From positions 806,001 to 870,000 of the forward strand of contig JAWPMV010000001.1 of NCBI GenBank assembly GCA_033391075.1: a stretch of DNA of 64,000 nt. The letters run 5' to 3'. Below, one piece after another: positions 8,225 through 62,042 of the stretch. The stretch is from Bacteroidia bacterium. Lineage in GTDB: Bacteria; Bacteroidota; Bacteroidia; J057. Both the position numbers and the translations under genes were made by a program. The notes under the pieces were generated by a model that made no database searches, was not told the origin of the DNA, and saw only the letters and a list, made by a program, of their open reading frames with translations. The stretch's first letter is position 1, and each line of letters starts with the position of its first letter.

Positions 8225-9757
8225 ATGGTGAATGTTAAATATTTCATACTCTCAATTGCGCTATTCCAATTCACATTAGTTTTTGGACAAACTGATGTCC
8301 AAAGCAAAGCGCCTTCTTCAAGTCCACTTGCTGAACAAAAGCAATCACTCTTGGAGGCTCATAGTAACCTTATCAGAAAAAACGATTCCTTTGTCACAGA
8401 TAAGCGTGAAAAGATATTCAGTCAAGAGTTAGCGCACTTTACCTTAATAATTGATTCTTTGGAGCAAAGCGTGCAGAAGCTTGTCAGGAAATCCGAAGGA
8501 AATTTTGAAGAAATAGATGCTCAAATAATTGATAGCCTATTGACGGAAACAAAATTCAAGTATAGACGATATCGATTGTTGTATCCACAAAACTATCATC
8601 GCTTCTCGGGTTTTAATAAAAAAGCAAGCGTTTCCAGTGAGTATTTTGAAAAGGTAATGAAGGGAAGTTTTGATAAGCCATCCTTATTGCAGTTTAAAGA
8701 ATATCGAAGATGTATGAATTTCTATTTTGATATTCTTTCTGCTGGAGAATACAAGTTTTCACACCTTGAATATGTTCCTGTAAAGCGTTTGGACAAGCGT
8801 TATGATGCCATAGCTGACTTGGACGCTCATCAGAGCCTGAAAGATTTTTTTATCAAGGAGCATTTTACTTCAAATATTTGGACCTATCGTGTCGAGGCTT
8901 TTGATTATGCTTTCGCGAAAGTTTTGAAAGATGTCAAAAATCAAGCGTATATAAAGGAGATTAAGGATACCTACAAAATGGGTAAAGACAGAAGGAATGA
9001 TGCTAGTGAAATAAAAATGTACAGAACTGTAAATGGCATCACCCTTAATGCTCATATTTTTTATCCGGAAAATCACGATAAAAGTCAGGCAAAACCTGCA
9101 CATTTGTTTTTTCATGGTGGCGGTTGGGCGATTGGATTACCTGAATGGAGTTATGGCGCATGTCAGGCTGCCTCAGAAGAAGGAAGAGTTGCTATCGCCT
9201 TCGATATTCGTCTTAGGAATATCCACGCTACAGATGTAAAAGCTTCGGTTAGTGATGCGCTAAGTGCAATAGCCTGGGTTAGGGAACATGCGAAGGAATT
9301 AGGCATTGACCCAAACAAGATTTTGGCAGATGGTTTTTCTTCAGGTGCACATTTAGCCTTGGTTTCGGCTATGATTGAAAAGCCTGAAGATTTTGGGGTG
9401 AAGTCAACATATAGTTCAAAACCTGACGCCATAATTTTGGGTTCCTGCCCATACGACATTGCAGGCAGAGATGTTTACAACATCAATTACGATACACGAA
9501 CAATCTCACCCCTTTATCTTATTAAGGATAATCTCCCTCCCATACTCGCCTTCCACGGTGAGGACGATCGTATGGTCAAATTCTCTGAATTTGAAAAATT
9601 CAAGGACGCCATTCAAAAAACCAATAATAGTTTCACTTCACGTTCATATGCTGGTGCAGGACATTTTTATTTTAGAGGAAGTTCTCAAAAGGATTCGGAT
9701 GAAAGAAGAAGACTTACTGAAGAATTTTTGCTAAAAAATGGTTTTAAAATAAAATAA
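8225..9757 (+). CDS. Secreted alpha/beta-hydrolase (esterase/lipase-like) (cassette 9)
   Basis: The product has 510 residues: a signal peptide to FGQ (about residue 22), a helical N-terminal region of unknown type (about 30-270), then a hormone-sensitive-lipase-like hydrolase domain. That domain has the oxyanion motif HGGGW (about 297-301), nucleophile motif GFSSG (Ser 372), acid in HGEDDRM and catalytic His in AGHFYF. It probably hydrolyses esters in the periplasm or outside. The 240-residue N-terminal extension is unusual for the family. The cassette is one of the longest here (about 1.7 kb). Confidence 0.85.
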   Translation: MVNVKYFILSIALFQFTLVFGQTDVQSKAPSSSPLAEQKQSLLEAHSNLIRKNDSFVTDKREKIFSQELAHFTLIIDSLEQSVQKLVRKSEGNFEEIDAQIIDSLLTETKFKYRRYRLLYPQNYHRFSGFNKKASVSSEYFEKVMKGSFDKPSLLQFKEYRRCMNFYFDILSAGEYKFSHLEYVPVKRLDKRYDAIADLDAHQSLKDFFIKEHFTSNIWTYRVEAFDYAFAKVLKDVKNQAYIKEIKDTYKMGKDRRNDASEIKMYRTVNGITLNAHIFYPENHDKSQAKPAHLFFHGGGWAIGLPEWSYGACQAASEEGRVAIAFDIRLRNIHATDVKASVSDALSAIAWVREHAKELGIDPNKILADGFSSGAHLALVSAMIEKPEDFGVKSTYSSKPDAIILGSCPYDIAGRDVYNINYDTRTISPLYLIKDNLPPILAFHGEDDRMVKFSEFEKFKDAIQKTNNSFTSRSYAGAGHFYFRGSSQKDSDERRRLTEEFLLKNGFKIK

Positions 9758-26227: not shown

Positions 26228-27184
26228 ATGCAAGTCTCAAAAAAAAGCTTTGATGAAGGATTACAATCTTTTGTCTTCAGCGGTAATATGTTAGCTGCTT
26301 TGATCTCCCGAAAATGGGGGGTAAATCTCTTTCATTCGCTAACGAAAATGCTAAAAGGGAAAAATATAAAAGGGCTTCATTGTGAAGAACGTTACATCCC
26401 AAGTAGAAGTGGAGGCGATGATATCCGGGTGAGAATTTTTAAGCCTGAAAATTTTGAAGGAGAACTACCAGGCAAGCTTTACAATCATGGAGGAGGCTAT
26501 ATGCTCGGAGTGCCGGAAGTATCGCTGGAATTGCTTGAACAATATATCAAAACCAGAGCATGTGTAATTGTCGCACCCGATTATCGTAAATCTGTAAAAC
26601 AACCCTTCCCCGCCGGTTTTAATGATTGCTATGATACCTTATTATGGATGAAGGAAAATGCAAGTTCTCTCGGAATTCGGCCCTCAAAATTTATCATAGC
26701 GGGGCATAGTGCAGGAGGTGGTTTGACCGCGGCTGTGAGCCTGAAAGCCAGAGATACGGGAGACGCGGATATTGCCTTTCAAATGCCTATATATCCTATG
26801 ATTGACCATCGGCAGGAGACAGAATCGGCTAAAGCTTTTACTACTGTGCCTGTTTGGAATGGAATTACCAATAAACTGGCCTGGGATTTTTATTTGCAAG
26901 ATCAGCAAGGCAAAGTGCCGGTATATGCTTCCCCTTCCTTAAATAAAGACTACAAAGATTTCCCACCGACCATCAGCTTTGTAGGAGATATGGAACCTTT
27001 CAAAGACGAAACCATCGAGTATATTGATATGCTCAAAAAATTTAATGTGCCGACCAAATTTGAATTGTATAAGGGCGCCTTCCATGGATTTGAGTCAGTG
27101 GTCAAAAATGCTCCGATCTCCAAACAGGCAAACAAATTTCAGTTCGAAGCATATGCTGAATTTTACGATAAATATGCTCCTTGA
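26228..27184 (+). CDS. HSL-family alpha/beta-hydrolase (esterase)
   Basis: This 318-residue protein has no signal peptide. Motifs: oxyanion HGGGY (His about 87), nucleophile GHSAGG (Ser about 161), acid near SFVGDMEPFKDE and catalytic His in KGAFHGFE. It is a complete member of the hormone-sensitive-lipase type and probably a cytosolic carboxylesterase. It is a full-length relative of the fragment at 20770-21220. Confidence 0.93.
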   Translation: MQVSKKSFDEGLQSFVFSGNMLAALISRKWGVNLFHSLTKMLKGKNIKGLHCEERYIPSRSGGDDIRVRIFKPENFEGELPGKLYNHGGGYMLGVPEVSLELLEQYIKTRACVIVAPDYRKSVKQPFPAGFNDCYDTLLWMKENASSLGIRPSKFIIAGHSAGGGLTAAVSLKARDTGDADIAFQMPIYPMIDHRQETESAKAFTTVPVWNGITNKLAWDFYLQDQQGKVPVYASPSLNKDYKDFPPTISFVGDMEPFKDETIEYIDMLKKFNVPTKFELYKGAFHGFESVVKNAPISKQANKFQFEAYAEFYDKYAP

Positions 27185-27349
27185 TTTTTGATTTATATGG
27201 GAAAACCTTTTCCACACAAAAAAAGGCCTTATGCGCAGTAAGGGAAATAGGGTCTGTGGCGAAAGGCTTCCTTTAGCAAATTTATCCTAAAATTAAGGAG
27301 CAGTTATTAGACATCTGAATCTTAATCAATCAGCGAAAACGTGGTATTA

Positions 27350-27532
27350 ATGTCCACCCTGAAATTCCTGCTCTGTATCATCGGGCTTGTCATAATGATG
27401 ACGTATTTATTCAATGGGGTCTTTGGCAAAGATGAAAATGGAATTATCAAAGCGATAAAGGCCCTTTTTGTGACTGGAGGGCTACTCCTTGCGATCACAG
27501 GAATTGAGTTTTTGGTTGTGTTTTATGCTTGA
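27350..27532 (+). CDS. Small two-helix membrane protein
   Basis: This 60-residue protein has two hydrophobic segments (about 5-22 and 38-58) joined by a short charged loop (GKDENGIIKAIKA). No family is recognised. The start ATG 27350 is preferred to GTG 27341. It ends 3 nt before the next, damaged gene. Confidence 0.6.
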   Translation: MSTLKFLLCIIGLVIMMTYLFNGVFGKDENGIIKAIKALFVTGGLLLAITGIEFLVVFYA

Positions 27533-27535
27533 TAT

Positions 27536-27829
27536 ATGAGCTTTTTCTCCAAAATATTCAAAAACAAATCCAAAGGAGCGCCCCTGGTTCTGGATGCGAA
27601 TGGACTCCATAGGCTAGGAGGTAAAGCCCCTAAAGAATTTACGATGCCAGAACTGGAAAGCAGTCCCATGATCTATCTGGGTTTTATCAGTAAGCATGAC
27701 CCGGGACTGGAACTGGTTGATTTTGATTTGCACTTGGTCTTCCCCTATTCATTGACCGGCAAAATCCTGTGTTTTTCGACTATTCAAGCCCCAATCGTCC
27801 AACGCTGATCAGGGGAAATTTTGCCAAGT
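27536..27829 (+). pseudogene. Frameshifted and truncated cytosolic protein gene
   Basis: The frame from ATG 27536 encodes 90 residues (PLVLDANGLHRLGGKAPKEF, then LGFISKHDPGLELVDFDLHL). After about 27763 the natural sequence continues in the +1 frame (PVFFDYSSPNRPTLIRGNF) and then stops. One indel and a missing 3' part explain this. The intact ancestor resembles DUF1963-like small proteins; that assignment is tentative. Confidence 0.55.
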
Positions 27830-27946
27830 ATGCGGGCTGTTAAAGAATTATACAAAAGCCTGGGATTTGTAGAAATAGAGGCCTATCGCTTTAATCCCAT
27901 CCCTGGCACCATGTTTTTTGAGAAGAAGTTGAATGCTGAGCTGTGA
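27830..27946 (+). pseudogene. C-terminal fragment of a GNAT acetyltransferase
   Basis: A 38-residue frame (AVKELYKSLGFVEIEAYRF, ending PIPGTMFFEKKL) matches the last strand-helix-strand of GNAT enzymes, where LY-x-LGF marks the end of the acetyl-CoA fold. The preceding 100 residues are missing, and the fragment directly abuts the damaged gene upstream. Confidence 0.7.
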
Positions 27947-28091
27947 ATTCCTTCTTTTCGAAAAGCAAGAAATTACCATAATTGAAAATTGAATTCTATT
28001 TTATACCTTGATGGTAGATTTTTATCTATAAAACTGCCTTTCTCCAAAAGATCTATCTGTTTCCTGGATAAAAGGTAGTAACAGCTTCTAT

Positions 28092-31000
28092 ATGCTCGAT
28101 ATCAAGAACAGCCATCTTAGAAGGAGAAGGTCTATTCCTTATACATTCCGAAGTAATTACCTGCAATATTTGCTATCGGCTATCTTGCTCGTATGGCTAA
28201 GCAGTCTCCAAGGACAGAATAAGCTTGAGCAGCAAATTAAGAGGTTTACGGAAAGAGATGGATTGAATACGGTAATATTCACGGGGATTGTGCAAGACAG
28301 CTATGGTTTTATTTGGCTTTCGACTGATTTAGGGATTTATAGGTTTGACGGTCAAAATTTTGTTCAATACTCCGTTTTTCCCGCAAGTGATGGAACAAAA
28401 GGAGGCCTGATTCATTTAAATGCTGCCAGTCTCTTTTGTGATTCTCGTGACAGAATATGGACGAGTTTATTTTGGGGAGGAGTAAGTCGACTCGATAGAA
28501 ATACGGATCGTTTCATTTCTTATGAATCCTATTGGGATGATGAAGTTGAATATCCCATTAAAACCTCCCACAGGTTTATGGAACTGCCTACAGGAGAAGT
28601 CCTTTTAGAATCAGCGGGAACCATATTATACTTTGAGGAGGAGGAGAATACATTTAGGAAATGGAATGCCGGAGATTTTGGTATAGATTCCAAACCACTA
28701 GTATTTGGCTTTGAAGGGAATGGTACCTCCTGGTGGCAAACAGAGCGGCATCTAACTACTTCCTTCGATCAAAAAAAATCCCAAATTCAGCTGGCTGAAA
28801 ATATTCGCCGAATCAAGTATCTCACGATTTCCAAAAAGGGCATCTGGGTTCTTTCCTCCCAGGCTCAACTTCACTTTTATGATCTGCAGGCTAAAAGGTG
28901 GAAAAATGTGGAGAGCAGAAATGTGCAATTAAATCGTTACAAAATTTTTGATCTGCACCAGGACCGTTCCGGACGTATTTGGCTTACCCTCGAAAAGGGG
29001 ATTGTATATGGGAAAATAATTAAAGAAAACGCGGAGCAGCTTGAGCTTACATTTGAGGAATTGGTTGTTGAAGAAAAGGCCCATACCTTGATCAACTTAA
29101 ATCATACGCTGGAGGATAAAGAGGGGCGCTTATGGTTTGCAAGCCGGGGACTAGGATTAATGATGCTGGATGAGAACAAAATTCAATTTCTTTTGGGCGA
29201 AAAATCAGAAATAGAACTCGATAATCTGGGCTTTTCTTTAAGAAATAATGAAAGGGCGATCCCATTTGTTCCAGCACATAAAAAAGAAGCAGCATTGGCC
29301 CGGGTGCGAACCCTCTACGAAGATGAAGATTATTCTTTGTATGAACATGGTAGAGATGGAATGAGCTTTGTGGATCATACTGCAATTAATCCGGTTCAGT
29401 ATTACTACGAGGAAAATATTCCCTTTGTCGGTCAGATTGTTCGAGACAGGAATGGGGATCTATGGTGGAGCATGGATAGAGGTATCTATAAAAGTTCAGG
29501 CAAAGTATTGAACCCTAAAGCAGAGAATCTGGAAGCTGTTTTTCCAAACTACGTAGGCCGGAAAATTGAAATTGACCTAAGGGAAAATGTATGGATAGGT
29601 AGTTGGGCTGATGGAATAGTACGAATAAACCCGCAGACAAATCATGTCGAGCATTACAATCCTGATAAGGGTACGGGAAAAGGATTAAGGGGAATAAACG
29701 CACATCGCGTCTTGAGTTTAGCGGATAGCAGCGTTTGGGTACAAACCTCAAAAGGCTTACATAAATACACCTATGCATCTGATTCCTTTGAATTTTTTGG
29801 CCCCCGGGAAAGTTTTCCGATTCATCAAGCCAGCCTTATGATCAAAGATTATGAGGATAAGCTTTGGTTTGTGATTCCACATGGCTTCATGCGTTGGGAT
29901 CCTATTCGTTTTGAGGCTCAAATTTTTGATAAGAGTTATGGGCTTCCTGCTCTGGTGTATTGGGGGCTTAATATTTCTGAGAAAGGTATCCTCTCCGCAA
30001 CAACTGGCGAAGGACCGTTTTCTATGGACTTGAATTCTTTCTCCCGTCCTTCTGCTCCCCCCAAATTAAAATTCGTTTCTGTGAAGGTACAGACTGATTC
30101 TGTGATTCGATACATCAATCTTTTGGGCAAAAAACAACTGGAATTATCCCATAATGATGAACAGGCAGAATTTGAATTTACCGGCTTTGAGTTTGGCCAA
30201 AACGGAGAAATTGAATACGAATATCGTATAGGCGAAAGAAGCAACTGGATTAAAATAGGCTCAACGGAAAAGCTAAGAATTATAGATCCTGAGTATGGGC
30301 GACAAGCATTGGAAATTCGAAGCAGGAATGCATCATCAAATCTCTACAGCACTCCTGCGATTATGGATTTATATGTCCAGGCACCCTGGTGGGCGAGAGA
30401 TTGGGCCTTTCCTGTATACGCCTTGATTTTACTCAGCTTTATCTTTTTAAGCACAAGATGGCGAACACGTTCTCTTCTCAAAAACAAGGAAAAACTGGAA
30501 GCAACCGTTAAAGAACGAACGAAGCAAATTGCAAAGGAAAAAGACAGATCTGAGCAATTATTGCTAAATATTCTTCCAAAAGAAATCGCTGGAGAACTTA
30601 AAAAAGAAGGGCGATCACAAGCTCAATTCATGGAAGAAGTTACAGTAATCTTTACTGACTTTAGAGATTTTACCAAAATATCAGAGAAGCTGAGTCCGAA
30701 AGAATTAGTCGCTGATTTAAATGCGTATTTTTCCTCTTTCGACCTGATTATGGAAAAATACGGGATTGAAAAGATTAAAACCATCGGTGATTCCTACATG
30801 GCTGCCGGAGGCTTGCCTACGCCAAATTCCAGGCATGCTCAGGATGTCCTGCGAGCTGCTTTTGAAGTGCGTGATTACATCCGAGAAGAGAAAAGGAAGA
30901 AAAAGCTGGCAGAACATCCCTACTTTGAGATTCGAATCGGGATTCATAGTGGTCCGGTTGTCGCGGGAATTGTGGGTGTGAAAAAATTTCAATACGATAT

Positions 31001-31187
31001 ATGGGGAGATACCGTGAACACAGCCAGCAGAATGGAAAGCAGCGGAGAAATAGATCGAATAAATATCAGTGCCAGCACCTATGACCTTTTGAAAGAAGAA
31101 AAAGATTTCAACTTTCTGTCCAGAGGAAAAGTCTTTGCCAAGGGAAAAGGAGAAATGGAGATGTTTTTTGTTGAAAGAAGATCCTGA
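28092..31187 (+). CDS. Transmembrane adenylate cyclase with Reg_prop beta-propeller sensor
   Basis: The product has 1031 residues: a signal anchor (about 20-42), then a periplasmic propeller of Reg_prop-type repeats (GFIWLSTDLGIYRFDG, RIWTSLFWGGVSRLD, RLWFASRGLGLMML, NVWIGSWADGIVRI; about 50-640). A Y_Y_Y-like domain (about 655-765, YEYRIGERSNWIKIG), one TM helix (about 772-790), a short coiled coil and a class III cyclase domain (about 848-1030) follow. The metal-binding Asp are in FTDF (856) and GDSYM (900). Lys 896 and Asp 969 fit adenine selection, and Asn 976 and Arg 980 fit transition-state residues, so cAMP is the expected product. The sensor is of the kind normally joined to histidine kinases. 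Confidence 0.92.
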   Translation: MLDIKNSHLRRRRSIPYTFRSNYLQYLLSAILLVWLSSLQGQNKLEQQIKRFTERDGLNTVIFTGIVQDSYGFIWLSTDLGIYRFDGQNFVQYSVFPASDGTKGGLIHLNAASLFCDSRDRIWTSLFWGGVSRLDRNTDRFISYESYWDDEVEYPIKTSHRFMELPTGEVLLESAGTILYFEEEENTFRKWNAGDFGIDSKPLVFGFEGNGTSWWQTERHLTTSFDQKKSQIQLAENIRRIKYLTISKKGIWVLSSQAQLHFYDLQAKRWKNVESRNVQLNRYKIFDLHQDRSGRIWLTLEKGIVYGKIIKENAEQLELTFEELVVEEKAHTLINLNHTLEDKEGRLWFASRGLGLMMLDENKIQFLLGEKSEIELDNLGFSLRNNERAIPFVPAHKKEAALARVRTLYEDEDYSLYEHGRDGMSFVDHTAINPVQYYYEENIPFVGQIVRDRNGDLWWSMDRGIYKSSGKVLNPKAENLEAVFPNYVGRKIEIDLRENVWIGSWADGIVRINPQTNHVEHYNPDKGTGKGLRGINAHRVLSLADSSVWVQTSKGLHKYTYASDSFEFFGPRESFPIHQASLMIKDYEDKLWFVIPHGFMRWDPIRFEAQIFDKSYGLPALVYWGLNISEKGILSATTGEGPFSMDLNSFSRPSAPPKLKFVSVKVQTDSVIRYINLLGKKQLELSHNDEQAEFEFTGFEFGQNGEIEYEYRIGERSNWIKIGSTEKLRIIDPEYGRQALEIRSRNASSNLYSTPAIMDLYVQAPWWARDWAFPVYALILLSFIFLSTRWRTRSLLKNKEKLEATVKERTKQIAKEKDRSEQLLLNILPKEIAGELKKEGRSQAQFMEEVTVIFTDFRDFTKISEKLSPKELVADLNAYFSSFDLIMEKYGIEKIKTIGDSYMAAGGLPTPNSRHAQDVLRAAFEVRDYIREEKRKKKLAEHPYFEIRIGIHSGPVVAGIVGVKKFQYDIWGDTVNTASRMESSGEIDRINISASTYDLLKEEKDFNFLSRGKVFAKGKGEMEMFFVERRS

Positions 31188-31248: not shown

Positions 31249-32232
31249 ATGAAGACACAAAGCACCTGCCTTTTTCTCATCTGTCCACTATTCATTTTGG
31301 TTTTTGCCTGTAACGATCCGGGACCTGATTACCGGGACAATGATCTATCATTTGTCTATACAGCCGAATACGTTGATAATTTCATTGGTCGGGCAAACCT
31401 CTTTCTGGAGGATTCCGTTTCCTACAAACAATGGTTCTCGGAGAAGCCGGAAATGTGGAGTTATTATATGCTTCTCAATCAGGAATGGCCCTCTCGCATT
31501 TTTGAAAACAGAATCGAGATTAAGCACGATAAAACAATTGAAGAGTTGACAGCCGGGGATATACAAAGGAAAATTGAGGCTGTAAGAAGTGGAAATCCGG
31601 AGGCTGGCCACTACCTTACCTACCTGGATACTTTCGATACGCAAAGCATTCATATACATACCAAAGTCAGAGAATGGAAAGACGGCAAATCCGAAGCGGT
31701 GGTAAAGTCCTCAGAGAGAATAGATTTTCAAAAAAGAAAAATCGGAGATGCATACGCCTGGATACCCATCCTGATAAATCAGAAACTCTTCAAAAGATCA
31801 GATTACTCCTGGGTTTCCTCTTATCCCAATCAGATGTACCTCAATCCAAACACACATCTACCGGAAGGGGAAATAAAGATATACTATGCAGTGGCTCAGT
31901 GCCTGAACATGAATTATTGTGAGATTAGCAGCAGGCTGAACATGTATCCCAATGGTGTCCAATATTTTTCTGGAGCAAAAATAGGAGGCCCGCTCACGAT
32001 TGGAGACATTCGAATGAAAGCGGGTGAAATAGAATTTGGGCTTATGGGCTCAAGAGTGGCTACAACTGAAAATGAATTACTACAGGGGACAAATTGGAGG
32101 GGAGTGCTTTATTGGAACAATAGCGGAAATGGAATTGATAGCCTTACCTATGCATGGGAAATGCGTTTGGATACCGCAGCTAAGCCATTTACTACCGCTC
32201 CGATTTCTCCTCTCATTAAGGATGAAGAATAA
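31249..32232 (+). CDS. Lipoprotein of unknown function
   Basis: The product has 327 residues with a lipoprotein signal ending ILVFAC (Cys about residue 21). The mature protein is aromatic-rich and mostly strand-like, with LNMYPNGVQYFSGAKIGGP in the second half and a KAGEIEFGLMGSR strand. There are no catalytic motifs. It follows the adenylate cyclase but has its own promoter and 61 nt of spacing. Confidence 0.78.
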   Translation: MKTQSTCLFLICPLFILVFACNDPGPDYRDNDLSFVYTAEYVDNFIGRANLFLEDSVSYKQWFSEKPEMWSYYMLLNQEWPSRIFENRIEIKHDKTIEELTAGDIQRKIEAVRSGNPEAGHYLTYLDTFDTQSIHIHTKVREWKDGKSEAVVKSSERIDFQKRKIGDAYAWIPILINQKLFKRSDYSWVSSYPNQMYLNPNTHLPEGEIKIYYAVAQCLNMNYCEISSRLNMYPNGVQYFSGAKIGGPLTIGDIRMKAGEIEFGLMGSRVATTENELLQGTNWRGVLYWNNSGNGIDSLTYAWEMRLDTAAKPFTTAPISPLIKDEE

Positions 32233-34638: not shown

Positions 34639-34671
34639 CGCCTGATAGATGAATAAATTGTCTATCAGGCG
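34639..34671 (+). terminator. Inverted repeat after the NTF2-like gene
   Basis: CGCCTGATAGA and TCTATCAGGCG form a perfect 11-bp hairpin with an 11-nt loop. The following bases are only moderately T-rich, so it is either a weak terminator or an mRNA end stabiliser. Confidence 0.6.
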
Positions 34672-34696
34672 ATTCCATTTATATACCCTCAGAGAG

Positions 34697-35833
34697 ATGA
34701 ATAAACTTAGTGTTTCCATCGGTATCATCTTACTTTTATCCTTAAATTCTTGTGAAGAAACAGGAGCCGGAGAGATACAACCTGACTTTGGTGAAGTGAA
34801 TGTTGAAGTCATGGCAAGTGGCTTTCAAATTCCCTGGAGCATTGAAGTCATTGGGGAAAATGAATTCCTTTTTACCGAGCGCCTGGGAAAATTATACCAG
34901 TACAAGGAGGGAACAACAAGTCTCATCAATTTACTCCCTATATCCGCTACGGTACGATTTGATGGATTGACTTATGGAGGTTTTATGGATGTGAGCTTGC
35001 ATCCCCGTTATGCAGATAATGGATGGGTGTACCTCGCCTATGTAAATACGGATTATCGGCTTTCGGTAGTCAGGTTTCAGGTGGAAGAGGGTTCGGCCAA
35101 AGTGAAAGAATTCATTTTTGAATCCAATGCCTTTTCTATCGGATCACGTATCGTTTGGCAGGATGAGAGGCATTTCTTTTTGACCCAGGGATTAGGAGGA
35201 AACCCATTGCCTGAACCGGGACCTCAGGATCTGACAAATGATGGAGGGAAGATTCATCGCCTGTTGGAGGACGGACAGATTCCTCCAGACAATCCCATTT
35301 TTCCCAATGCCTCCGCGCCTACAACCGTATGGAGCTATGGACATAGAGATCCGCAAGGACTTTTTTATGATGAAAATGCCGAGATCCTCTATTCTCACGA
35401 ACATGGACCTCTGGGCGGAGACGAACTAAATATCATTACCAAAGGCGACAATTTTGGTTGGCCCCTCTTTTCCTATGGCCTGAATTATGATGAGACTCCC
35501 GTTTCTAATCTTAGCGAACAGGATGCTGCAAGCAGTACCATTTTGCCTATCAAATACTGGGGAACGGATTTCCGTCTGGCACCTTCCGGCTTGCTAAAAC
35601 TGGACAACAGCAATTTTACGGATTGGAATGGTTCTTTCCTGATCGGTTCGCTGGGATTGCAAGGGCTTTTCTCTTACAATGTGCTGAGAGATGAAAGTCG
35701 TATGTTACTTGAAGGCATTGGTAGGGTCAGAGATGTTGTTCAGCTACCCAGTGGGAATTTATTGATTTCGATAGATGCTGCTAGTCCCAGGGCTGCTGAT
35801 GAAGGAAGAATCCTTAAACTTTCCCCGAAATAA
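34697..35833 (+). CDS. PQQ-dependent glucose/sorbosone dehydrogenase-like lipoprotein
   Basis: The product has 378 residues with a lipoprotein signal ending SLNSC (Cys about 17). It is a six-bladed GSDH propeller: IPWSIEVIGENEFLFTER, GGFMDVSLHPRY, TNDGGKIHRL and WSYGHRDPQGLFYDE. EHGPLGGDELNII and GDNFGWPLFSYG are the PQQ/calcium-site segments, and AEGRILKL-like bases end it. It is probably periplasmic or outer-membrane and oxidises a sugar. ATG 34697 was chosen over an earlier frame start at 34649 because it places the signal first. Confidence 0.88.
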   Translation: MNKLSVSIGIILLLSLNSCEETGAGEIQPDFGEVNVEVMASGFQIPWSIEVIGENEFLFTERLGKLYQYKEGTTSLINLLPISATVRFDGLTYGGFMDVSLHPRYADNGWVYLAYVNTDYRLSVVRFQVEEGSAKVKEFIFESNAFSIGSRIVWQDERHFFLTQGLGGNPLPEPGPQDLTNDGGKIHRLLEDGQIPPDNPIFPNASAPTTVWSYGHRDPQGLFYDENAEILYSHEHGPLGGDELNIITKGDNFGWPLFSYGLNYDETPVSNLSEQDAASSTILPIKYWGTDFRLAPSGLLKLDNSNFTDWNGSFLIGSLGLQGLFSYNVLRDESRMLLEGIGRVRDVVQLPSGNLLISIDAASPRAADEGRILKLSPK

Positions 35834-60089: not shown

Positions 60090-62042
60090 TTAATTTTCTG
60101 CTTTCAGCAAACGGATAACTTTATGCTTTCCAGGAGAAAATACTTTTATAAAGTATAAACCAGGACTCCATTCCTCTCCTGGTATTTTTACATATTTCTG
60201 CTTAGCAATTAGCTTATTCTGGTAAATGACATGGCCGAGCATATCATAAACTTGAATTTCTATAGGAGTAGGATCGTTTATCGGAAGTGATACTATAAAT
60301 TCCTCCCTAAATGGATTTGGATAAGCTTTTATATCCTCCCATTCATCTGGATTAGCGAAACGGTTAGAACTGGAGGTTTGGCAGGAACTAATGGCCGATA
60401 AAGAGATACTTATATTGGGGGCATCACCGTCATAAATATCACGGAGATTAACAGTGATCTGACTTACGGCCCCATTTATATCTATATTGGCTGAATTTTG
60501 ATTGCTTCCTGAAAAAGGCCCCAGGTTCACCAAAGTGCCTGTGCCATCTAGGTAGCTAATGGAAACCTCTTCAATATACCGACTGTCAGATTTCCCTTTT
60601 GTTTTGGAGCCAATACCTGAAATGCTAAAAGAAATATTTTCCTGATTTGCGAGATTAATGCTTGTACTGCTACTTCCTGTCCCACTATGCGATAAGTTCG
60701 AATTAGGAAAACTATTTGAGACATCCTGACAGTCATCACATCCATCCGGGATACCGTCTCCATCTGCATCTTGTAAATCATCTGATCCCGGACAAACATC
60801 ATTGCCGTCGCATACTCCATCATTATCAGCATCTGAACAGGGTTCCCCATTCCCCTGGCAATAACTAACATTTGATAGGCTTATGCTCATTTGCGTGCTA
60901 CCTGTATTACCGTCAAGTTCGTCTTCGAGGCTAAGGCTGATGGATTGTACCTGCCCTGGAATATCAATATTTACATCGGAAACATTGCTCGCACTATAAC
61001 TTCCATAGGATATTGTAGAACCGGATCCATTCACATATGATACTTTGACTAATTCACTGTAATGCTTTGAGGAAGGCCCGTTTGTCCTACTGTTGATGCC
61101 AGTAATTGTAAAGTTGATATTCTCGCTATTTGCTGGCAAACTCACATGAGTTGAATTTGCTCCAGTCCCTGCATGGGTAAGAGGGTTAGGAGAAAATGAA
61201 CTACTAAGACCACAATTATTGGATACAATCTCCTCAACTGAAAAATCGGCAAAGAGTACTACCTCATCTCTCAATTGTGCACTATTATTCAGGCTGCGGT
61301 AAATCCCCCATTTAGGTCGTTGAAATTCTGCTCCGGTTTTCCACATTCTAATCGCAGGATCCTGGTAATAAAACAAGCTTGCATTATCACTAATTCTATT
61401 GAGAGAAAGTTCATAAGAACCAGTTTCCCCATAGGTAATTGTCTCTGTGGCTTCCACCCATACTCCTTTGAAATCCGATAAAGGAGCTGTAGCAAGGGTA
61501 AGCTGAGTATTACTTTCTGCATACCTCAATTCGAGATTTTCAGGACTCCCTGCTCTTGCAGTTAGGGTGATTTGTGGCATGCTGGATTCTGAACCTCCAA
61601 CTGCTTTGATCTGATGTAAGTGAGTGAAACTACTAGATGGTTGAAATCCTGCATCCAATTTGAATTTCCAGGAGTAAATTACCGTTTCACCTTCTATTCC
61701 AAGAAGATTGTCAGGGGATTGATCATAAGACTTGATCTCATTCCTTTGGCGGTCAAAATTTATGCAACGATCATCATCCTGGTCCCTATGAATAAAGAAC
61801 CTGAATACATTGCTTTGGAGTTCATTGTCGAATACTTCGTCAATATGCCTTCCAAAAGTGCCATGTGAACAATCTGGAACTTCAATTGGATTATAACCAG
61901 GAGCTAAAACGCTTTCAATCAACTCATAGGTATTCCCCGGGCCATCAGCGGAAAGAAGGGTTTGGGAAATAAGCTCTTGAGTGAAAAGGGAGAAAGATAC
62001 AAGTAATAGTACTTTGGAAAAGCATGATGCCAGTAGTCGCAT
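60090..62042 (-). CDS. Polysaccharide-lyase-like T9SS-secreted protein with repeated carbohydrate-binding-like modules
   Basis: The product has 650 residues with a signal peptide (about 5-26). Residues about 28-275 look like a beta-jelly-roll lyase of the heparin-lyase-I/PL20 type (FFIHRDQDDDRC, ETVIYSWKFKLDAGFQ, FTHLHQIKAVG, MPQITLTARAG). Two copies of a 110-residue module follow (FSPNPLTHAGTGANSTHVSL and FPNSNLSHSGTGSSSTSINL), separated by a thrombospondin-3-like calcium loop (DADNDGVCDGNDVCPG). A T9SS domain ends it (AYPNPFREEFIVSL). It probably cleaves a polysaccharide outside the cell. The PL family is not fixed by sequence alone. Confidence 0.8.
   Translation of the reverse strand: MRLLASCFSKVLLLVSFSLFTQELISQTLLSADGPGNTYELIESVLAPGYNPIEVPDCSHGTFGRHIDEVFDNELQSNVFRFFIHRDQDDDRCINFDRQRNEIKSYDQSPDNLLGIEGETVIYSWKFKLDAGFQPSSSFTHLHQIKAVGGSESSMPQITLTARAGSPENLELRYAESNTQLTLATAPLSDFKGVWVEATETITYGETGSYELSLNRISDNASLFYYQDPAIRMWKTGAEFQRPKWGIYRSLNNSAQLRDEVVLFADFSVEEIVSNNCGLSSSFSPNPLTHAGTGANSTHVSLPANSENINFTITGINSRTNGPSSKHYSELVKVSYVNGSGSTISYGSYSASNVSDVNIDIPGQVQSISLSLEDELDGNTGSTQMSISLSNVSYCQGNGEPCSDADNDGVCDGNDVCPGSDDLQDADGDGIPDGCDDCQDVSNSFPNSNLSHSGTGSSSTSINLANQENISFSISGIGSKTKGKSDSRYIEEVSISYLDGTGTLVNLGPFSGSNQNSANIDINGAVSQITVNLRDIYDGDAPNISISLSAISSCQTSSSNRFANPDEWEDIKAYPNPFREEFIVSLPINDPTPIEIQVYDMLGHVIYQNKLIAKQKYVKIPGEEWSPGLYFIKVFSPGKHKVIRLLKAEN

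Follow-up and report, generated by a model that had tools for sequence, protein, structure and literature searches.

A propeller-sensor protein of a Bacteroidia bacterium as a predicted single-pass receptor adenylyl cyclase, with an architecture that recurs across its phylum

What is the function of a protein that joins the periplasmic sensor of a hybrid two-component system (HTCS) to a class III nucleotidyl cyclase? The question is raised by a 1031-residue protein encoded at positions 28092-31187 (plus strand) of a 64,000-nucleotide stretch of DNA, hereafter the window, from a Bacteroidia bacterium (GCA_033391075.1, contig JAWPMV010000001.1, positions 806,001 to 870,000). The reading frame is intact from ATG through stop. 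We consider it probable that the protein is a single-pass receptor adenylyl cyclase, in which a propeller sensor controls synthesis of cyclic AMP (cAMP) from ATP and the genome's cyclic-nucleotide-binding proteins serve as readers. As judged from the sequence, its domains, their order, a lone membrane segment and the catalytic residues are as follows.

28092..31187, plus strand: whole gene, 1031 residues, running from Reg_prop propellers through a Y_Y_Y-type domain, transmembrane helix and helical linker to a class III cyclase (open reading frame, Pfam, structural model)
28155..28217, plus strand: N-terminal hydrophobic stretch, about residues 22-42, behind an Arg-rich start; likely signal peptide (by eye)
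28278..29189, plus strand: first half of the beta-propeller region, residues 63-366, about seven four-stranded blades (strand list of the model, Reg_prop at residues 59-79, Foldseek to 4a2l)
29304..30029, plus strand: second half of the beta-propeller region, residues 405-646, six to seven blades (strand list of the model, phmmer to 3v9f)
30063..30377, plus strand: Y_Y_Y-type beta-sandwich, residues 658-762 (leave-one-out profile, phmmer to 3v9f, model; uncalled by Pfam)
30399..30455, plus strand: transmembrane helix, residues 770-788 (hydropathy; model helix 772-827)
30456..30608, plus strand: cytoplasmic helical linker with the motif LLLNILPKEIAGELK, residues 789-839, likely a signalling helix and transducer element (model, HNOBA match under cut-off)
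30621..31175, plus strand: class III cyclase catalytic domain, residues 844-1028 (Pfam, catalytic residues, VIA-align)

Residues 770-788 are the only segment of the protein to exceed the hydropathy threshold used for transmembrane helices; the N-terminal hydrophobic stretch falls below it and was assigned as a signal peptide by eye only. With this topology, the propellers would lie in the periplasm. A preliminary description of this DNA, made from the sequence alone, had called the sensor two-component-style. The label holds for the ancestry of the sensor and fails for the rest of the chain: Pfam lists no kinase, receiver, HisKA, HATPase, AraC or GGDEF domain in the protein at E ≤ 10. Because no kinase or receiver domain was found, a two-component protein is not the best reading of this frame.

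The three-part domain make-up proposed in that description, comprising Reg_prop, a Y_Y_Y-type region and a cyclase, is supported throughout. Reg_prop scored above the Pfam cut-off (E 7.9e-10) in three stretches, the best at residues 59-79; the propeller thus withstood the domain search that had been named as its test. Y_Y_Y was unlisted by Pfam even at E ≤ 10, and its assignment comes from profile, phmmer and model evidence. A hidden Markov model of the Y_Y_Y and transmembrane region, made from 15 relatives with the window's own row excluded, matches the protein at E 8e-14 as a whole, with the alignment on residues 666-785, and still matches residues 640-766 alone, without the transmembrane part (E 8.9e-10). 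At E ≤ 10, neither the 200 shuffled versions of the protein nor the 59 other cyclase rows (two fetched twice and a few truncated at contig ends) gave a match to the same profile. In phmmer searches, residues 429-747 of the sensor piece (449-767 of the protein) align to residues 455-779 of 3v9f (HTCS BT3049), and the predicted structure has a beta-sandwich at 658-762 behind an all-beta region at 63-646.

The closest structural relatives of this region are HTCS sensors, and the kinship claimed in the preliminary description appears right by sequence and fold comparison. With the sensor alone, phmmer found four PDB sequences at E ≤ 0.01, every one an HTCS or one-component sensor: 4a2l (1e-18), 3v9f (6.1e-16), and 3va6 and 3ott (both 5.1e-5). 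Foldseek ranked the periplasmic domain of BT4663, a heparin-sensing HTCS, as the best PDB match, with 4a2l spanning 793 columns; the first 15 rows were all periplasmic or extracellular HTCS or one-component sensors (4a2l/4a2m, 3v9f, 3ott, 3va6), and cyclases and PorZ came after them. VIA-align placed 4a2l_F on residues 52-765 with Z 23.2 and a root-mean-square deviation (rmsd) of 21.1 over 613 residues. A chance or misread propeller was ruled out by Foldseek, the leave-one-out profile and phmmer. The blade numbers (seven plus six to seven) are indicative, since they come from a model of low confidence (mean pLDDT 65.5); they are in line with the two seven-bladed propellers given for HTCS sensors in the accessible text of PMC3243724.

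The cyclase half looks fully equipped for cAMP synthesis. Guanylate_cyc matches residues 844-1028 in Pfam (E 8.7e-59), and VIA-align against solved cyclases gave Z 22.6-26.5. All six catalytic residues checked are present: D856 and D900, which we take to bind metal, the presumed transition-state residues N976 and R980, and the adenine-specifying pair K896 and D969. In phmmer alignments, the latter two stand opposite the Lys and Asp of mammalian adenylyl cyclase C2 domains. The preliminary description had singled out Lys 896 and Asp 969 as fitting ATP use; the positions proved exact and the pair is of the adenylyl type, so that adenylyl specificity is predicted. The catalytic string D-K-D-D-N-R is found in the window protein, in 15/15 other direct fusions compared, and in 61 of the set's 77 cyclase rows, which include a few double fetches. 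Upstream of the catalytic domain, the linker motif LLLNILP is invariant in 16/16 rows of one alignment and kept in 13/16 of another, where L146, L147 and L150 differ. An HNOBA match at residues 794-836 lies under the Pfam cut-off.

These features suggest how such a receptor might work. A periplasmic ligand or partner would bind the double propeller and shift the Y_Y_Y domains of a dimer; the movement would travel via the single transmembrane helix of each chain and the helical linker with LLLNILP, bringing two cyclase domains into an active homodimer that converts ATP to cAMP, which in turn would act via the cyclic-nucleotide-binding proteins of the genome. We infer that the protein has a ligand, forms a dimer, is catalytically active and yields cAMP for a downstream reader; coupling from binding outside, through membrane and linker helix, to the cyclase is proposed by analogy with HTCS and receptor cyclases. 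The window genome has 45 cyclase matches and 33 cNMP_binding matches (32 above cut-off), the latter being candidate readers of the product.

We then determined how widely the architecture is spread, a survey that the preliminary description had proposed. Within the sampled family the fusion is unusual: at 1e-60, a search of 12 other same-family genomes recovered no orthologue of the full-length protein, and the matches obtained at this threshold, in seven of these genomes, all start at residue 776 or later. In a contig scan, 16 of 18 loci match only from residue 756 on. Two loci match most of the chain, namely L121 (28% identity, residues 47-1028), which has the same layout and lies in an Ignavibacteriota metagenome-assembled genome, and L129 (32% identity, residues 50-1030, two neighbouring frames). 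Across the phylum, the fusion is recurrent. Among 27 open reading frames picked because their match extends into the Y_Y_Y region or covers most of the chain (L145 was taken for the length of its frame), Pfam cut-offs were passed by Reg_prop and cyclase in 26, by Y_Y_Y and cyclase in 26, and by all three in 25; the exceptions are L139, whose Y_Y_Y falls below cut-off, and L129, in which Reg_prop does so. The Pfam scan of fetched candidates left out L153 and L154, and L155 turned out to be a TPR cyclase. In an even draw of 148 phylum genomes, a match from Y_Y_Y through cyclase occurs in at least 13, the window genome included; the frames of the 12 others carry all three domains above Pfam cut-offs and are part of the 25. 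An architecture unique to the window genome was rejected on these counts.

The sensor itself is poorly conserved. Sensor-part matches at 1e-15 were found in only three of 99 other genomes of the set, at 25-32% identity, and three of the four places with the nearest sensor relatives, the fourth lying in one of the same genomes, were scanned: one encodes an HTCS (kinase, receiver, AraC) and two encode SpoIIE proteins. Because a limited number of candidates was scored per genome (at most 13 in the same-family search, 10 in the sensor search and 13 at E ≤ 1e-60 in the phylum search), the genome counts are lower bounds. A literature search that included Reg_prop with Guanylate_cyc, with subscription papers mostly outside its coverage, returned no description of the fusion that we recognised among the matches listed. 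Sensor and enzyme are each known; their pairing is without a description in the literature searched, yet recurrent in genome data.

We examined the origin of the fusion with a tree of 62 cyclase domains, obtained from the 77 rows by dropping 12 below 200 bits, two double fetches and one run-of-N frame. The fusion group was defined by architecture, ahead of the tree. The 16 direct fusions require at least eight label changes (bootstrap 5-95% range 7-8, from a bootstrap that had not settled), three of them forced by well-supported branches; a quick tree gave identical counts. A single clade of direct fusions was rejected under the model used (approximately unbiased test, p 0.00012). The direct fusions do not form one clade, and the union of sensor and cyclase therefore probably took place on more than one occasion; these label changes carry no direction, as the tree cannot separate gain from loss. 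The window cyclase clusters with six cyclases of other architecture (support 98/89), with up to 68% identity (L124). TPR is above Pfam cut-offs in three of the six (L092, L125, L136) and weak in two (L122, L124), and L126 is cut by a contig end.

Several points weigh against the receptor adenylyl cyclase model. The whole-chain structural model has low overall confidence (mean pLDDT 65.5, pTM 0.38), TM-scores against HTCS structures are low in Foldseek (0.22-0.25 by query length, rmsd >20 Å), and modelling the sensor by itself, from three rows, gave a poorer result (pLDDT 57.0, pTM 0.39). As no whole-protein orthologue was found, conservation of this exact fusion cannot be shown. Class III cyclase domains can be inactive or require a partner, CRP/FNR-type proteins often do not bind cAMP, and cyclic-nucleotide binding by the 33 cNMP_binding proteins is assumed from their family.

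Comparison with known systems places the protein between several groups. Like the HTCS BT4663 and BT3049, it has a Reg_prop double propeller and a Y_Y_Y-type periplasmic domain, with a transmembrane segment before the cytoplasmic output (PMC3243724, accessible text); unlike them, it has none of the listed kinase, receiver or AraC modules (HisKA, HATPase, receiver, AraC; Pfam, E ≤ 10), and unlike linked HTCS it has no adjacent SusD, the one marker searched for, although not all HTCS need such linkage. A Reg_prop/Y_Y_Y sensor feeding a nucleotide second-messenger enzyme is shared with Xanthomonas GdpX2 and GdpX3, as far as the accessible text of PMC6637768 describes them, whose output is GGDEF and cyclic di-GMP in place of a class III cyclase. 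Sequences that align to the linker plus cyclase include the ANP receptor guanylyl cyclase (query 800-1026, E 5.9e-47), mammalian adenylyl cyclases and the mycobacterial membrane cyclase Rv1625c (7yz9; residues 814-1027). The ANP receptor guanylyl cyclase has a single-pass receptor layout. The window protein differs from receptor guanylyl cyclases and Rv1625c in its unrelated ligand domain, its adenylyl-type specificity residues and the lack of a kinase-homology domain. The closest cyclase domains are those of TPR-class III cyclases of related bacteria (up to 68% identical), which differ in having a cytoplasmic or unassigned TPR-type input in place of propeller and Y_Y_Y; the Y_Y_Y and transmembrane profile, as given above, matches 0/59 other cyclase rows.

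Other cyclase proteins of the same genome and of relatives vary this plan. L152 (1561 residues) and L187 (1538 residues), near 5.98 and 2.45 Mb of contig C1 of the window genome, are ordered Reg_prop, Y_Y_Y, HisKA, HATPase, receiver and cyclase (Y_Y_Y below cut-off in L152), that is, an HTCS with a cyclase replacing the AraC domain; their catalytic string is DQDANR. These cyclases are much more distant, at about 31% identity to that of the window. In both, and in L166 of this genome, also a kinase-receiver-cyclase protein, the two specificity positions are occupied by Gln and Ala. L146-L150 have a Reg_prop, Y_Y_Y and cyclase order followed at the C terminus by a match to the HD domain that scores close to or below the Pfam cut-off, and could possibly combine cyclase and phosphodiesterase in one chain. 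A dense array at C1:7290001-7328500 of the window genome (L162, L163) has 12 cyclase matches; of two that were Pfam-scanned, one is a 7TMR-DISM cyclase and the other an N-terminal cyclase with TPR. By eye, nine more resemble the latter and the one at 7314096 is unlike.

Does the locus link glycan sensing to cAMP, as the preliminary description had suggested? Genes for glycan use other than SusD were sought in the window only, where 35 proteins, the cyclase protein included, were scanned with Pfam. The neighbours that matter here are the following.

60090-62042, minus strand: protein with a type IX secretion system (T9SS) tail and a polysaccharide lyase match below cut-off (27.6 of 29.9 bits), 29 kb from the cyclase (Pfam)
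8225-9757: alpha/beta hydrolase with a BD-FAE match, E 1e-22 (Pfam)
26228-27184: upstream neighbour, alpha/beta hydrolase with BD-FAE at E 6.3e-16, matched better by Abhydrolase_3 (Pfam)
34649-35833: glucose/sorbosone dehydrogenase (Pfam)
31249..32232, plus strand: downstream gene, 327 residues, with a lipoprotein-like start by eye, 61 bases past the cyclase stop (open reading frame)

None of the genome's 15 SusD matches lies in the window, the nearest being about 393 kb off. Another Reg_prop gene of this genome is about 5 kb from a SusD, and SusD linkage is therefore detectable by the method used. Nor was a propeller-cyclase gene found near SusD in 22 further genomes that carry one, many of them drafts, which limits the test: 12 are without a SusD match and 10 have one, with both genes on one contig in G167 only, about 450 kb apart. 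The proposed glycan link is left with weak hints, and the search for linked genes in other genomes found none near propeller-cyclase genes by way of SusD; nothing seen ties the propeller-cyclase firmly to sugar use, and linkage gives no clear support. The downstream gene, without a Pfam match, is possibly co-transcribed with the cyclase, as judged by spacing alone. Upstream, 27220-28090 holds short frames like remnants of other genes, one of which resembles a GNAT acetyltransferase end by eye. Promoter and terminator scans gave fewer sites than in shuffles. Among relatives, one clade has conserved neighbours encoding an ECF sigma factor, FecR and a CarbopepD_reg_2 protein (scanned in L204; relatives L205-L208), and a second has DUF3467, TPR and T9SS-tail proteins (scanned in L200; relatives L201-L203).

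A glycan-sensing cyclase, which would recognise an oligosaccharide through its propeller in the manner of gut HTCS, raise cAMP and turn on polysaccharide use, nonetheless has points in its favour; we regard it as unlikely. Among structures, the top match is BT4663, a sensor of heparin/heparan sulphate, and the window holds the sub-cut-off lyase match, the dehydrogenase and two BD-FAE hydrolases, which we presume may be esterases of plant glycans. HTCS with such a sensor recognise oligosaccharides, according to the accessible text of PMC3243724. The SusD results stand against this, as do the three nearest scanned sensor relatives: with AraC-type HTCS or SpoIIE outputs among them, the sensor fold alone does not predict a glycan.

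The propeller could instead be an anchor or protein-contact module of a constitutive or matrix-tethered cyclase, with no small ligand gating the enzyme. PorZ uses its propellers at the cell surface, and 5m11 (PorZ) is among the Foldseek matches; the NCBIfam PorZ match is far below cut-off (E 1.2e-10, 40.5 of 260 bits). The poor conservation of the sensor (1e-15 matches in at least three of 99 other genomes) would also fit, but changing ligands would equally give fast sensor change. We consider this improbable, as the linker and cyclase resemble receptor cyclases and the order of sensor, Y_Y_Y, one transmembrane segment, helix and enzyme is the HTCS receptor layout (PMC3243724, accessible text). 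A guanylyl or inactive cyclase seems very unlikely to us. Guanylyl cyclases are close matches and class III domains switch specificity with few residues; against this, the K896 and D969 pair is adenylyl-type and none of the metal Asp, Asn and Arg residues is missing, in contrast to the Gln and Ala at the specificity positions of L152, L187 and L166.

The receptor adenylyl cyclase reading has a wider implication, which we rate as an even chance: that bacteria of the phylum have, on several occasions, arrived at ligand-gated receptor adenylyl cyclases through direct fusion of the HTCS double-propeller and Y_Y_Y sensor to class III cyclases resembling those of TPR proteins. Such proteins would be a bacterial counterpart of receptor guanylyl cyclases, in a cAMP network apart from polysaccharide utilisation loci, in which the HD-tailed form might both make and break cAMP and the kinase-receiver-cyclase form exists in the same genome. 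An HTCS-type sensor by itself should not be taken as a sign of glycan sensing. To our knowledge, cAMP signalling in Bacteroidota is little studied; the recurrent sensor-cyclase fusion offers a handle on it, with a sensor family that has solved structures and a cyclase half that is directly assayable.

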